Part shown: piece by piece, positions 1,342-6,205 of the stretch
How the letters are laid out: each line of letters opens with the position of its first letter
Position numbering within the stretch: the first letter of the stretch is position 1
DNA from: Armatimonadota bacterium
Lineage (GTDB): Bacteria > Armatimonadota > Fimbriimonadia > Fimbriimonadales > Fimbriimonadaceae
Direction: 5' to 3'
Assembly: GCA_020438215.1 (NCBI GenBank)
Contig: JAGQUX010000005.1
Coordinates: 1-64,000 of the forward strand
DNA: 64,000 bases
Position numbers and translations under genes: made by a program
The notes under the pieces: generated by a model
Databases searched by the model: none
Told to the model about the DNA's origin: nothing
What the model saw: only the letters and a program-made list of their open reading frames with translations

Positions 1342-1432
1342 TGGCGGAGAGGGTGGGATTCGAACCCACGGAGGCTGTTACACCTCACCGCATTTCGAGT
1401 GCGGCGCACTAGACCAACTATGCGACCTCTCC
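1342..1432 (-). tRNA. tRNA-Ser (anticodon CGA)
   Basis: Read on the minus strand, the 91 bases fold as a class II tRNA. The acceptor stem is GGAGAGG/CCTCTCC with discriminator G and an encoded CCA end. The anticodon arm shows CACTCGAAATG, giving anticodon CGA, which reads UCG. There is a long variable arm (GTGAGG..CCTC) and a T arm GTGGGTTCGAATCCCAC. The long variable arm is typical of serine tRNAs. The gene is intact, with an encoded CCA. Confidence 0.96.
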
Positions 1433-1478: not shown

Positions 1479-3485
1479 TCAGTTCGCCCGTGCCAGAGCA
1501 ACTGCTTCTTCAAGCGTCACGAGCTTCGGCTCAATGTTCGGGGAAAACACCTCGTACATCCCGTCCTCTGATCCGCCAGGAATCACCAAAGTCGTTCGTG
1601 GAAACTGAGATCGCACGGAGGCTGAGGCACCTTGCGGAACAGCAACCAAAAACGGGTGAGAAAATACGTTTGCCGCGCGGGCAAATCCTCCCGCTCCAAG
1701 GCTCAGCGCATCGACCGATGACGAGTATCGCTCCAGCCACTGTTCCGCCCGGGCCATATTCATGAGACAATTATGCGGATCGCGAGACATCAGACCATAC
1801 TCCACCAAAAGGTGAATCACTTTGCTGACCGCCGATCGAGAATAACTGTCGGTCAGGTCTGGAAAAGTGAACGGATCCACATCTGGCAAAAGATCTTTCC
1901 AATTCCCGAGTACCAAGTCTCCGCCGCTCTCTCGTGCAAGAAAAATTCCACGATCCAGCACCGCTTGCCCCTCTTCCAATACTTCACTATTTGGTTGAAA
2001 ATATTGTGTTGCCAAGACCATCTCAGCGTATGCAAGGTAGTCCATCAGGTCGCCGGGCTTGACCGCTCCATCAAAGTTCCGCCGGTAGACGTCATCGAGG
2101 CCAATCCTCATCACGTCCTGCAAACGATGGAATTCCGCCGTTGCCCGGCCCAGCAGAAACTGATCCTCTAGCAAGAGAGCTGCTCTGAAAACAGCGGCAA
2201 CGGATCGAGCCAGAACTCCCAAATCGTGACGATCGCCAACCGTGACCTTTCCATCCTGCCGATTGTCACGAAGAACTTCAAGCAACTTCTCGATCTCATC
2301 CCGCTGCCCCAAAAATGCATCCACTCGCCGGATATAGAGGGATAGTTGAGGGTTTGACTTTACCTCCATGCCAAGAGCACTTTCTGCAAGCAGTTTTTGC
2401 CGAGGAGTCAATTCACTCTTCAAACGGTTCACTGTCCATGAATATGTGAGCGACCGCCGGTTATCAGCTTGAAATGCGTCTCGATAAACAGGCATTCCCT
2501 CACTCCACTGGTTAATGATTCGGTACGCAAGTTGCTTAGCTAATATCCGGGAAAGGTCGTCGCCATCTGCGGCCCGATTCGCTAGCAAATCCAGCATATC
2601 GAAATTGGCACTAGCGACCTCGCTGTAATTGACATTCCACCAACTGGTGGAATTGGCATCCCAGAAAAATCCACCGTCCAACAGGTTAACGGCAGGTGAC
2701 TGCAAAACTGGCGAGAGGCAAGCAGCGAGATTCTCGTCATCCCCCATTTCGTACATCAAGAGCCATTCCTGTGGATACAAACGAACGTGGGATTGGCCCC
2801 GGAATCCTCCCGACGATGGATCCATTCGAGAGACCAATTTTTCGAGGTAAGAACTTGGATCGAACGGTTCAGCAAGCGAGCCACCCCTCACCCAAAACTG
2901 GCTTTCCTCCTGCTGTTCCTGAGCCGGGTCGAATTCTCCAGAACCTTTTCGTTCCAGTGCGGTTTTCAGCATCGTCAGAAGACCTCGGTCGTTGACTTGC
3001 CAAAGCTGAATCGAAGAGGGTGCTAGCAATATCTTCCCAGTTGGAGTGAGGATGTACATCCCAAAAGTTGGGTCTTCAGCAAACTCAGCGCGGCGAAACT
3101 GAAGCAAAGCACTCCGCCAAGCCGGATTCTCAGTCGTATCCACGCGGGTGCAAATGAAATCGTGATTGAGTTTCCGCACAATGTCATCGGTTTCAAAAAA
3201 CCGATCCATCCGTTGCCCGAGCTTGCTCCAACCAGTACCCGTCACGAGAAGGATTGGCTTATCCTGTCGCCGCGCTTCCACAAACGCCTGCGAACCAAAG
3301 AGCGTCCACTTCAGCTTTTGAGATTGGGCTGCACGGACAAAATCACCCGGCTGATTGACCAGCAGATTTGGCTCAGGATCAGGAATCAGAGGTCTGAGAA
3401 GATAGGCGACCGAAGCCACCAATATCCAGAAAGTGACCAAAAAAGTCACAACCTGATACCCTTCTCTGCGTCCCCAAACTGACAT
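1479..3485 (-). CDS. Membrane-anchored DUF255/YyaL-like protein without the CxxC site
   Basis: The 668-aa protein has one N-terminal membrane segment (about residues 12-31). A thioredoxin-like DUF255 region follows: W..FGSQAFVEARRQDKPILL, then ..FF.TDDIVRKLNHDFICTRVD. After it comes a (alpha/alpha)-barrel-like region with the family's D..SGGFRG and LLDGGFFWDAN landmarks. YyaL/SSP411 proteins normally carry a Cys-His-Trp-Cys-type site after 'KPI.LSI.YS'. Here the equivalent stretch reads TGTGWSKLGQRMDRFF and has no cysteine. I infer a non-redox, envelope-anchored paralogue. The alpha-helical part is also diverged. It is divergent from gatC, with -10 elements of both genes close together. Confidence 0.75.
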   Translation of the reverse strand: MSVWGRREGYQVVTFLVTFWILVASVAYLLRPLIPDPEPNLLVNQPGDFVRAAQSQKLKWTLFGSQAFVEARRQDKPILLVTGTGWSKLGQRMDRFFETDDIVRKLNHDFICTRVDTTENPAWRSALLQFRRAEFAEDPTFGMYILTPTGKILLAPSSIQLWQVNDRGLLTMLKTALERKGSGEFDPAQEQQEESQFWVRGGSLAEPFDPSSYLEKLVSRMDPSSGGFRGQSHVRLYPQEWLLMYEMGDDENLAACLSPVLQSPAVNLLDGGFFWDANSTSWWNVNYSEVASANFDMLDLLANRAADGDDLSRILAKQLAYRIINQWSEGMPVYRDAFQADNRRSLTYSWTVNRLKSELTPRQKLLAESALGMEVKSNPQLSLYIRRVDAFLGQRDEIEKLLEVLRDNRQDGKVTVGDRHDLGVLARSVAAVFRAALLLEDQFLLGRATAEFHRLQDVMRIGLDDVYRRNFDGAVKPGDLMDYLAYAEMVLATQYFQPNSEVLEEGQAVLDRGIFLARESGGDLVLGNWKDLLPDVDPFTFPDLTDSYSRSAVSKVIHLLVEYGLMSRDPHNCLMNMARAEQWLERYSSSVDALSLGAGGFARAANVFSHPFLVAVPQGASASVRSQFPRTTLVIPGGSEDGMYEVFSPNIEPKLVTLEEAVALARAN

Positions 3486-3488
3486 TCC

Positions 3489-3518
3489 TTGGCTCCATTA
3501 TGGTCGCCATGCTATCAT
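3489..3518 (+). promoter_or_regulatory. gatC promoter, probably leaderless
   Basis: TATCAT at 3513-3518 is followed by exactly six bases and then the gatC ATG at 3525, so transcription would start at or next to the A of the start codon. A TTGGCT element (3489-3494, four of six matches to TTGACA) lies 18 bases upstream. No Shine-Dalgarno is present. A CATAAT-like -10 for the opposite gene lies within the same stretch (3497-3502). Confidence 0.55.
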
Positions 3519-3524
3519 CGGTTG

Positions 3525-3815
3525 ATGTCGATTTCTTTGGACGAAGTGCGTCATGTGGCAAAACTCGCCCGGCTTGAACTCAATGAAGACGAGTTAGTCG
3601 ATTTTCAAGGCAAGCTGAACGCCTTGCTGGGCCACTTTGAAGATATTCAGGGCCTAGACGTGAGCAACCAGGCTCCCAAGCCTCATGCCGTCAGCATGAT
3701 CAACGTTCTTGCCGAAGATATTGCCCGTCCTGGAATCCCGCGCGAACGCGGAATGGCCAACACCGCTGATAGCAAAGCCGGACTCTTCATCGTCCCCACA
3801 ATCATTGAGGAATAA
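3525..3815 (+). CDS. gatC: Asp-tRNA(Asn)/Glu-tRNA(Gln) amidotransferase subunit C
   Basis: The 96-codon frame begins MSISLDEVRHVAKLARLEL, the characteristic GatC start. It continues with E(D/E)L..F..L..LL.HF..IQ..DV and ends with the usual R.D region. GatC stabilises GatA within the GatCAB complex, which amidates mischarged Glu-tRNA(Gln) or Asp-tRNA(Asn) in the cytoplasm. It is first in the gatC-gatA operon with a 9-base gap to gatA. gatB is not in the window. Residues encoded before 3525 are unlike GatC, so this ATG is the start. Confidence 0.95.
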   Translation: MSISLDEVRHVAKLARLELNEDELVDFQGKLNALLGHFEDIQGLDVSNQAPKPHAVSMINVLAEDIARPGIPRERGMANTADSKAGLFIVPTIIEE

Positions 3816-3824
3816 GCAAAGCCG

Positions 3825-5267
3825 ATGTCTACTCAACTGACAGCCACCGAGCTTGGACGAAAGATCGCGGCAGGTGACATCAAAGTTCAAGAAGCCATTG
3901 ATGCTTCCTGTGCCCGCATTGATGCCAACGATGAAATCTACAAAGCTTTTCTGACTCTCAATGAAGATGTCCAAACCGACATCGACCGCGCAGAAAAGAT
4001 GCTCACTGATGGCTCAGCTGGCCCCCTCACGGGCGTGCCTGTTGCGATCAAAGACAACATCAGCACTGACGGGCTCCGCACAACCTGCGCCAGCAAGATC
4101 CTCGAGAACTACATCCCGCCTTACGATGCGACGGTCATTGAACGGATGAAAGCCGCAGGGATGATCGTCATCGGCAAAACAAACCTCGACGAGTTCGCAA
4201 TGGGAACATCCTGCGAAAACAGCGCGTTCTTCCCCAGCCGTAACCCCTGGGATCCGGATCGGGTGCCGGGCGGAAGCTCAGGTGGCTCTGCCGCCGCAGT
4301 GGCAGCAGAATACGTGCCTCTCTCCCTTGGGAGCGATACGGGCGGCTCCATTCGCCAACCGGCAAGTCTTTGCGGCATTGTCGGATTCAAACCAACTTAC
4401 GGGCGTGTTTCCCGCTACGGGCTCGTTGCTTTTGGATCAAGCCTTGACCAGATCGGCCCGTTCGCACGATCGGTTGAAGATGCCGCCGCAATTTCTAATG
4501 TCATCTCGGGTCACGACGCCAACGATGCCACCAGCCAACCGGATTCTCAGATCAAGCTCAATGGTTTGAAAGATGGTTCACTCAAAGGGCTAAAAATCGC
4601 CATCCCCAAGCAACTCTTTGGCGAGGAAATCGAAGAAGGTGTCCGCCATGTCATTGCTCAGAACATCAAAACTCTTGAGCAAGATGGCGCAACGGTCACC
4701 GAAATTGATCTGCCCAGCATCAACTACGGCGTGACCACCTACTACATCATCGCCCCCGCAGAAGCGAGCAGTAACCTCGGGCGATACGATGGAGTGCGCT
4801 ATGGCCCTCGCATTGACGCTGACGGTCATATTGAAGCGTTTTCGGCGACGCGCGGCAGTCTGTTTGGGAAAGAAGTCAAGCTCCGCATCATGGTGGGAAC
4901 TTACGCGCTTTCTGCCGGGTATTACGATGCGTACTATCACCGCGCACAGCAAGTTCGTGGTTTGATGGCACAAGAATTCGAGCGTGCGTATCAGGAGTAC
5001 GACGTCATCATGAGCCCGTCTTCTCCCGGAGTTGCTTTCCCGGTGGGAGGGATTCAAGACCAAATGGCGTTGAAACTTTTGGATCTTTGTACGATCCCGG
5101 CGAACATGGGCGGCTTCCCCAGCATCTCACTCCCCAGCGGATTGAGTGAAGGGCTTCCGGTTGGATTACTTCTCAATGGGCCAGTTAATGGCGATGAGCG
5201 ACTCCTTCAGATCAGTTACGCCGTAGAACAAGCATTGGGATTCGATAAGCGCGCTCCCATGCCATAA
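3825..5267 (+). CDS. gatA: Asp-tRNA(Asn)/Glu-tRNA(Gln) amidotransferase subunit A
   Basis: This full-length 480-aa amidase-signature protein hydrolyses glutamine and passes ammonia to GatB. The Ser-cisSer-Lys triad is visible: the lysine in VAIKDNIS (about residue 76), GGSSGGSAAAV (about 149-155) and GSDTGGSIRQP with the nucleophilic serine (about 175). The GIVGFKPTYGRVSRYG and SSLDQIGP blocks typical of GatA (rather than a general amidase) follow. It sits 9 bases after gatC and 8 bases before the next gene, so it is part of the same transcript. Confidence 0.97.
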   Translation: MSTQLTATELGRKIAAGDIKVQEAIDASCARIDANDEIYKAFLTLNEDVQTDIDRAEKMLTDGSAGPLTGVPVAIKDNISTDGLRTTCASKILENYIPPYDATVIERMKAAGMIVIGKTNLDEFAMGTSCENSAFFPSRNPWDPDRVPGGSSGGSAAAVAAEYVPLSLGSDTGGSIRQPASLCGIVGFKPTYGRVSRYGLVAFGSSLDQIGPFARSVEDAAAISNVISGHDANDATSQPDSQIKLNGLKDGSLKGLKIAIPKQLFGEEIEEGVRHVIAQNIKTLEQDGATVTEIDLPSINYGVTTYYIIAPAEASSNLGRYDGVRYGPRIDADGHIEAFSATRGSLFGKEVKLRIMVGTYALSAGYYDAYYHRAQQVRGLMAQEFERAYQEYDVIMSPSSPGVAFPVGGIQDQMALKLLDLCTIPANMGGFPSISLPSGLSEGLPVGLLLNGPVNGDERLLQISYAVEQALGFDKRAPMP

Positions 5268-5275
5268 GGTGAGCA

Positions 5276-6205
5276 ATGGAAGATATCAAGCGAAGAGACA
5301 AAAAGGTTTTCCTGAAGGAAGCCTTTTCTCTTTCGCGCCTCATTGCTTTTGGAGCGATAGGAGGGTGTATTGCTATTCCAGTAATGGCGAGTACCGAATC
5401 TACGTTTCCGGCGGTTCCTATTGCCCTTACATTACTAGCCACTTGGGGAATCACCTCCTACATCGCCAGCATTGAGAAGCGATTTCACGATCAAAGGTTC
5501 AAGCGGCTCTGGGATGCCTGCGTCGATCGTAGGAAACGCCTAGAAGAAGCTCTGCAGGCCCTGCGCAAGAAGAAAATCGGAGACCTGCAAGAACTCCCTG
5601 GCACCGTCGAGCGACTCTCCAACCAGCTTTACCTCGCTCTCCGCCGCGCCGACCTTGTCCACCACGAAATTGTCTCTAGCGAATACCGGACTGCACCGCC
5701 CGTAGGAGGAAGCCCAAAGAAGTTCATCAATGACATGCAGGCGCAAGAACTCTACAAAGTCGCCGATCGAAACATCGCCGAATATAGCCATCACTTCAAA
5801 AATGTAATGTCTGGGGTTGAACGAGCCGAAGCCCAAGCCGTGGTTTTTGCTACAACTCTCGATACACTCCGGATTCGGATGCTGAACTACCGCCTCAGCG
5901 GAAATGCCCCCGAAGCCGAGTCGATGGAATTCCTGAATATGATCACAGAGGCGAAAATGGAGTTCGAAGCAATTGACAAGGCACTCGAAGAGATTGCTCT
6001 CACTCCCTTCCCAGAAACGATCGCCACAATCAAGCCGACACCATTCCCAAGCTCTAATCTCAGGGAAGTTGATGAAGAAGACGCGGCGCGCAAGCAAGCG
6101 ATTGCCGAGCTGAACTCAGAGCTCGGGCTGGATCATGAGAGCCTGGGCGGGCCACCACCAGTTCCTCCGCATGCGATCAAAAAAGAACAAGAGGATCAAG
6201 CGTGA
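5276..6205 (+). CDS. Membrane protein with coiled-coil cytoplasmic region, function unknown
   Basis: I do not recognise this 309-aa protein. Two adjacent hydrophobic segments (about residues 21-40 and 46-65) form a hairpin. A long charged, helix-rich region follows (KRLWDACVDRRKRLEEALQALRKKK.., ..EAQAVVFATTLDTLRIRMLNYRL..), and the acidic tail contains PPPVPP. Shape suggests an inner-membrane hairpin with a cytoplasmic coiled coil. AAGGTGAG upstream is a reasonable ribosome site for the ATG at 5276. Its stop overlaps the GTG of ispE by four bases (GTGA), so the two are translationally coupled. Confidence 0.7.
   Translation: MEDIKRRDKKVFLKEAFSLSRLIAFGAIGGCIAIPVMASTESTFPAVPIALTLLATWGITSYIASIEKRFHDQRFKRLWDACVDRRKRLEEALQALRKKKIGDLQELPGTVERLSNQLYLALRRADLVHHEIVSSEYRTAPPVGGSPKKFINDMQAQELYKVADRNIAEYSHHFKNVMSGVERAEAQAVVFATTLDTLRIRMLNYRLSGNAPEAESMEFLNMITEAKMEFEAIDKALEEIALTPFPETIATIKPTPFPSSNLREVDEEDAARKQAIAELNSELGLDHESLGGPPPVPPHAIKKEQEDQA

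Follow-up and report, generated by a model that had tools for sequence, protein, structure and literature searches.

A predicted membrane-anchored YyaL/DUF255 paralogue without its redox cysteines in the Fimbriimonadaceae

The window analysed here is a stretch of 64,000 nucleotides from contig JAGQUX010000005.1 of an Armatimonadota bacterium of the family Fimbriimonadaceae (GCA_020438215.1), whose genome (G000) comprises 2.64 Mb in 119 contigs. An ATG-initiated open reading frame at 1479-3485 on the minus strand encodes a 668-aa protein, described below as an anchored, CxxC-less YyaL/DUF255 paralogue. The first-pass annotation had placed this protein in YyaL/DUF255 on the basis of two flanking landmarks, and its reading of both the frame and the landmarks is exact in coordinates and letters, residues 71-80 reading ARRQDKPILL and residues 96-107 FFETDDIVRKLN. 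In profile searches, PF03190 (Thioredox_DsbH, DUF255) scores E 8.1e-12 over residues 40-131 (45.8 bits against a cut-off of 27), and Thioredoxin_7 (PF13899) matches residues 65-121 at E 1.2e-6, above its cut-off. Together with alignments to the solved structures 7tkv and 3ira, these matches delimit a thioredoxin-like (DUF255) region over residues 40-131, encoded at 3093-3368 (minus strand).

Thioredoxins typically show 'WC' at their active site. Alignment with 18 canonical YyaL proteins, all of which carry CxxC, places the former site of the window protein at Ser87-Lys88-Leu89-Gly90 (3216-3227, minus strand), with the cysteines of the canonical CHWC aligned to Ser87 and Gly90. Since Trp86 lies just ahead of Ser87, the thioredoxin-style 'WC' becomes 'WS'. 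The loss of CxxC that had been noticed at first reading is thus confirmed and refined to two defined cysteine positions within S-K-L-G, preceded by Trp86.

The second domain is an (alpha/alpha)6 toroid of the N-acylglucosamine 2-epimerase/GH76-like kind, spanning residues ~206-614 (1644-2870, minus strand), and it is followed by a C-terminal tail (residues 643-668; 1482-1559, minus strand) in which the cysteine pair of YyaL is missing. No enzyme family in Pfam or NCBIfam matches the window protein above cut-off; its sole NCBIfam match is TsoB, with 21.9 bits where the cut-off is 805. At a threshold of E 1 the N-acylglucosamine 2-epimerase profile PF07221 does not appear among the matches of the window protein, although the predicted fold is similar, and it appears in one of 48 relatives, at 0.0014. 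An AlphaFold2 model built from a 15-row alignment (mean pLDDT 81.9, pTM 0.84) has as its top solved Foldseek matches 7tkv (E 9.4e-21) and then 3ira (E 2.2e-5), which indicates that the thioredoxin part is retained in the predicted fold. VIA-align superposes model residues 38-640 on 7tkv (Z 36.3, 568 residues, rmsd 4.0), with the thioredoxin domain ahead of the (alpha/alpha)6 toroid, as in canonical YyaL, and its rows 2-50 (epimerases, GH76 enzymes and similar proteins) delimit the toroid only, with Z 21.9-25.6 over 276-321 residues. Structure prediction, proposed by the first-pass annotation as a check, therefore finds the thioredoxin fold present, with 7tkv as the best solved match.

Ahead of both domains, residues 12-30 (3396-3452, minus strand) form a hydrophobic, anchor-like segment with a mean Kyte-Doolittle value of 2.39, which the model renders as a helix over residues 9-29. 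The net charge is +1 over the 15 preceding residues and -1 after the segment, and from hydrophobicity and charge an N-in/C-out orientation is predicted; the sign of the charge after the segment differs among relatives. A hydrophobic N-terminal segment is present in all 63 anchored rows. The first-pass annotation had further proposed that the protein gained its membrane anchor as it lost its cysteines. The anchor-like segment itself stands, and a joint gain is at most conjectural, given secreted forms with CxxC elsewhere and trees without a fixed root. By eye, seven proteins in other families of the phylum (L130, L131, L133, L138, L141, L144 and L145) are secreted or lipoprotein-like and yet keep CxxC, and we accordingly rejected the idea that an anchor is unique to the CxxC-less form.

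The gene is flanked by a divergent pair at 3525-3815 (plus strand) and 3825-5267 (plus strand), which we take to be gatC and gatA, names recognised from the sequence itself rather than from a family profile. The 39 nt between the divergent starts (3486-3524) contain a CATAAT box directed toward the anchored gene, a consensus match rather than proof of a promoter, and a co-directional gene for tRNA-Ser(CGA) (1342-1432, minus strand) lies 46 nt beyond the 3' end of the anchored gene. This arrangement recurs widely. Divergent gatC/gatA lie at most two open reading frames upstream in 50 of 61 loci, including four of the five sister-family loci, and the start-to-start gap with gatC is 33-60 nt in 20 of 26 clustered loci (full range -30 to 117, the two negative values probably stemming from over-long start calls). 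CATAAT faces the anchored gene in 13 of the 20 loci with a gap of 33-60 nt. An inverted TATAAT-like box toward gatC was also seen by eye in many loci.

On the other side, tRNA-Ser(CGA) follows within 200 nt on the same strand in 42 of 61 loci, all of them from the window's family, compared with none of six outside it; in the window's genome this tRNA is without a near-identical duplicate, the next match being 71%. A [CT]ATAAT box stands within 30 nt before the tRNA in 33 of the 42 linked loci, against 47 of 12,200 random 30-nt windows, and in eight loci the box overlaps or sits inside the 3' end of the anchored coding sequence. With their own -10-like boxes, these 33 tRNAs may not depend on the anchored gene for their transcription, and we rejected the idea that the gene is kept only to transcribe the tRNA. 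The pattern suggests that overlapping promoters, known here as unmapped consensus matches, may hold the locus together, with no functional link shown between its genes. Beyond gatCA, the neighbouring conserved open reading frames and the tRNA, the neighbourhood offers no functional partner. One such neighbour, a 309-aa protein at 5276-6205 (plus strand), has no Pfam match above cut-off (EzrA alone, at 11.5 bits) and belongs to an ORF cluster found near gatA in 41 of 61 loci.

Many genomes of the window's family carry the anchored gene. Among 101 genomes of relatives, the window's own included, 92 have a match at E <=0.001, the weaker matches including canonical YyaL. Fourteen related loci were found, ten with the anchored protein and four with Planctomycetota proteins that keep CHWC; the ten are labelled Armatimonadetes or Fimbriimonadaceae, apart from one 'bacterium' and one 'Chthonomonas sp.'. 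For alignment, 60 anchored proteins were used, 55 from the window's family (the window protein included) and five from a sister family, and each of the 48 sequences in a representative alignment matches PF03190 at E <=0.01. CxxC is absent from the site in all 60: the first cysteine position holds Ser in 41, Asn in 9, Gly in 6, Asp in 2, Ala in 1 and Cys in 1, and the second holds Ala in 24, Gly in 20, Ser in 10, Arg in 5 and Tyr in 1. Two of them have CxxC elsewhere in the chain, L046 at 543 and L075, in a split frame, at 155. CxxC is likewise missing from L095, L114 and L115, anchored proteins of the order that are more distantly related and stand outside the 60. As every one of the 60 aligned proteins lacks CxxC at the site and has the hydrophobic segment, neither chance nor a sequencing slip accounts for these features, and a sequencing artefact was rejected on these grounds.

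The frame is 618-936 aa long in 58 of the 60, and in the other two, L075 and L079, the gene is split over two overlapping frames. These correspond to loci L125 (5001-6979) and L123 (4788-7081), in Uphvl-Ar1 and UBA6659, and may represent either a true frameshift or an assembly error. All counts on 58 orthologues given below exclude these two.

A further difference, which the first-pass annotation missed together with the changed toroid, lies at the C-terminus. The columns of a C-x4-C pair are filled in 18 of 18 canonical YyaL proteins and in none of the 58 orthologues. A wider set comprises 40 proteins with CxxC and 65 without. Of the 40, 38 have C-x4/5-C in their final 160 aa, and the two that do not (L130 and L135) are both cut by contig ends; of the 65, three have this spacing (L040, L081 and L115), counted at any position in that final stretch. 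As a YyaL trait, this cysteine pair is a feature found in the present analysis rather than a published criterion. We also observed, by eye, a YyaL protein encoded in a 1.5-Mb genome of the window's family (L150, 1610-3394, plus strand) that has CYWS for CHWC and lacks the C-terminal pair, which appears to be a partial, separate second case of cysteine loss.

To describe changes beyond the cysteines, a column was called canonical-invariant when identical in at least 17 of the 18 canonical proteins, which gave 110 columns, 52 of them in the toroid. Fifty of the 110 survive in at most five of the 58 orthologues. Residues largely lost include H265 (kept in 0), H277 (1), E279 (7), D284 (0), D335 (1), E342 (1), D418 (5) and K420 (3). 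Another 26 columns, of which 13 lie in the toroid, are retained by half or more of the 58 orthologues, and some of the old site may thus survive; W60, D116 and D546 are present in all 58 and G272 in 54, and in YyaL numbering the toroid also retains D258 (49), K280 (42), N375 (43) and A442 (41). New residues have become conserved in the 53 full-length orthologues of the family, namely R344 in 50 (Glu in 18 of 18 canonical proteins), S345 in 42 (canonical Gly, 18 of 18), F274 in 42 (canonical His, 18 of 18), R114 in 51 (canonical Lys, 18 of 18), D94 in 48, R132 in 45 and P542 in 49. R114 and F274 are found in all five sister-family proteins, and R344 in none of them. The window protein agrees with 61 of 79 family-conserved columns. 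With the pocket located by alignment, these new residues look like the mark of a changed pocket more than of decay.

Phylogenetic analysis sets the anchored proteins apart within YyaL. The first tree (51 rows; quick IQ-TREE, LG+C20 by PMSF, SH-aLRT) has several long branches and an insecure root, and in it a branch with support 99 separates the 30 anchored rows from the rest; the branch of the 18 canonical rows has support 99 and that of the 23 window-family rows 100. In a second tree of 53 rows, likewise a quick-mode tree without a firm root, to which secreted and further CxxC proteins were added, the 21 CxxC-less rows again fall on one side (99), and eight secreted CxxC rows are scattered. 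The window protein thus does not group with canonical YyaL and belongs to a clade of its own beside it (SH-aLRT 99). The homology to YyaL claimed at the outset holds, with no placement outside YyaL.

The anchored protein is the faster-evolving paralogue, with a median identity of 25.3% against 43.9% for canonical YyaL (55 pairs, 11 genomes); for GatA the median is 59.0% (36 pairs). Four close pairs are under purifying selection, with Nei-Gojobori dN/dS values of 0.048 (dS 1.8, near saturation), 0.071, 0.215 (dS 0.05, few changes) and 0.091.

The search for a cysteine-containing paralogue, likewise suggested by the first-pass annotation, located one in the same genome, a 717-aa CHWC-type YyaL with CHWCHVM and a PF03190 match at E 1.1e-74 (G000:C42; L096, 2516-4669, plus strand). 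It has the DUF255 domain and a homologous toroid in common with the window protein, and it differs by CHWCHVM, the C-x4-C pair, the lack of an anchor and its place on the opposite side of the tree. At its C-terminus, a DsbD_N-like match of 24.7 bits (cut-off 25) goes with the C-x4-C. Four weaker PF03190 matches are also present in this genome.

The two paralogues do not always occur together. PF03190 was searched in 24 genomes, mostly picked for having shown one match, a sample that yields no rate. Twelve of them (G016, G018, G026, G031, G035, G038, G045, G051, G060, G160, G238 and G255) keep the anchored gene and show no canonical YyaL, their PF03190 matches being no better than 1e-40; the anchored gene is known from the profile match in G238 and G255 and was read in sequence in the other ten. 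Eight genomes have a strong canonical-type match, at E 7.7e-59 or better, as a profile match rather than a sequence, and two (G036 and G054, the latter a sister genome of that with L150) have intermediate matches (1.8e-43 and 4.1e-43). The incomplete genomes G058 and G084 have neither a strong match nor the anchored gene. That twelve of these genomes carry the anchored gene and show no canonical YyaL argues that the anchored protein is independent of it.

Sequence, model and tree together show that the two-domain YyaL fold is kept, that CxxC and the C-terminal C-x4-C are gone, and that many residues invariant in canonical proteins are replaced around the former CxxC site and in the toroid. The cysteines expected of a thiol-disulfide oxidoreductase are missing from the former CxxC site of the window protein, and with the redox cysteines replaced, binding rather than redox chemistry is most likely. 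We consider it probable, with some reserve, that the product is an envelope-facing, redox-dead, membrane-tethered YyaL paralogue acting by binding, with a putative rebuilt pocket. The N-terminal helix would hold it in the inner membrane, the two domains facing the envelope, the thioredoxin domain may serve as a structural or docking module, and the changed toroid pocket could bind a ligand (a glycan or other envelope component) or a partner protein, so that the whole would work in the envelope as a binding or scaffold protein rather than a thiol-disulfide enzyme. The structural or binding role suggested by the first-pass annotation is likewise an inference.

The main rival to this binding reading keeps the toroid as an enzyme whose chemistry has changed, such as an epimerase or glycosidase of the AGE/GH76 fold, and regards only the thioredoxin part as dead. 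An intact toroid fold (Z ~25 to cellobiose 2-epimerases), conserved polar residues of its own (R344, S345, S349, D482 and D546) and the retention of 13 of the 52 canonical-invariant columns of the toroid by half or more of the orthologues would suit such an enzyme. We nevertheless regard it as unlikely, given that the canonical residues from H265 to K420 listed above are nearly all lost (0-7 of 58) and that no Pfam or NCBIfam enzyme family reaches its cut-off. A pseudoenzyme that regulates or partners the canonical YyaL of the same genome is less likely still: although 24 of the 34 family genomes listed have at least two profile matches, where a split frame may count as the second, the twelve genomes with the anchored gene and no canonical YyaL (a count that gives no rate) speak against such a dependence, as does the lack of an anchor in the canonical protein of the window's genome. 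Fast evolution, tight spacing to gatC and the tRNA, and the two relatives among 60 with overlapping frames could be read as signs of a decaying gene, held in place by promoter overlap with gatC and by the tRNA-Ser gene behind it. Decay is disfavoured by the frame length (618-936 aa in all but two of the 60 relatives), by the invariant residues and by dN/dS values of 0.05-0.22, and the -10-like boxes of 33 of 42 linked tRNAs weaken the tie to the tRNA, which makes this explanation highly improbable.

Returning to the binding reading, we tentatively entertain a wider version of it, which we hold to be possible but doubtful. A conserved envelope receptor may have been made from a whole two-domain redox protein, which lost both cysteine centres and had its toroid pocket rebuilt to take a new ligand. 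In canonical YyaL, the CxxC of the N-terminal domain and the C-terminal pair would then constitute one redox relay. From the joint loss of both cysteine pairs, electron exchange between them is predicted in canonical YyaL; the anchored clade represents one event, and the coupling of the two pairs therefore rests on at most two cases. A subfamily that has shed its putative redox residues and kept its fold separates the binding capacity of this fold from its chemistry. The subfamily also draws attention to a conserved protein, probably located in the envelope, of bacteria that have few representatives in culture.

We know of no established function for YyaL/DUF255 proteins, widespread as they are. 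One report describes the role of its YyaL protein as unclear (PMC7084401). Cysteine-less YyaL is the topic of no paper among the matches listed in searches of titles and abstract openings in the open-licence literature on YyaL/DUF255, SPATA20/SSP411/7TKV, Fimbriimonas and redox-inactive thioredoxins. Among solved structures, the closest known system is 7tkv, which is Bab1_2064 of Brucella abortus, an uncharacterized Thioredox_DsbH domain-containing protein that has the two-domain fold in common with the window protein and matches the family profile at E 1.5e-62. Identity between the two is 17-18%, and 7tkv differs in keeping CHWC and the canonical toroid motifs; as the sequence match begins at its residue 5, it has no anchor of the kind seen in the window protein. 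The DUF255 domain of Methanosarcina mazei (3ira) resembles the window protein in its thioredoxin-like domain and differs from it in being a single domain with CHWC kept. Cellobiose 2-epimerases and GH76 mannanases (3vw5, 7d5g, 4v1r) have the (alpha/alpha)6 toroid in common with it at Z ~25, with an identity of ~10%, and a common fold is no proof of common function. TRX z of Arabidopsis is a different protein without a toroid, and its redox-inactive form is a laboratory cysteine mutant, unlike the natural loss in the window's family. A redox-inactive variant of TRX z is reported to restore the mutant, which indicates that a thioredoxin can act structurally (PMC4036507).
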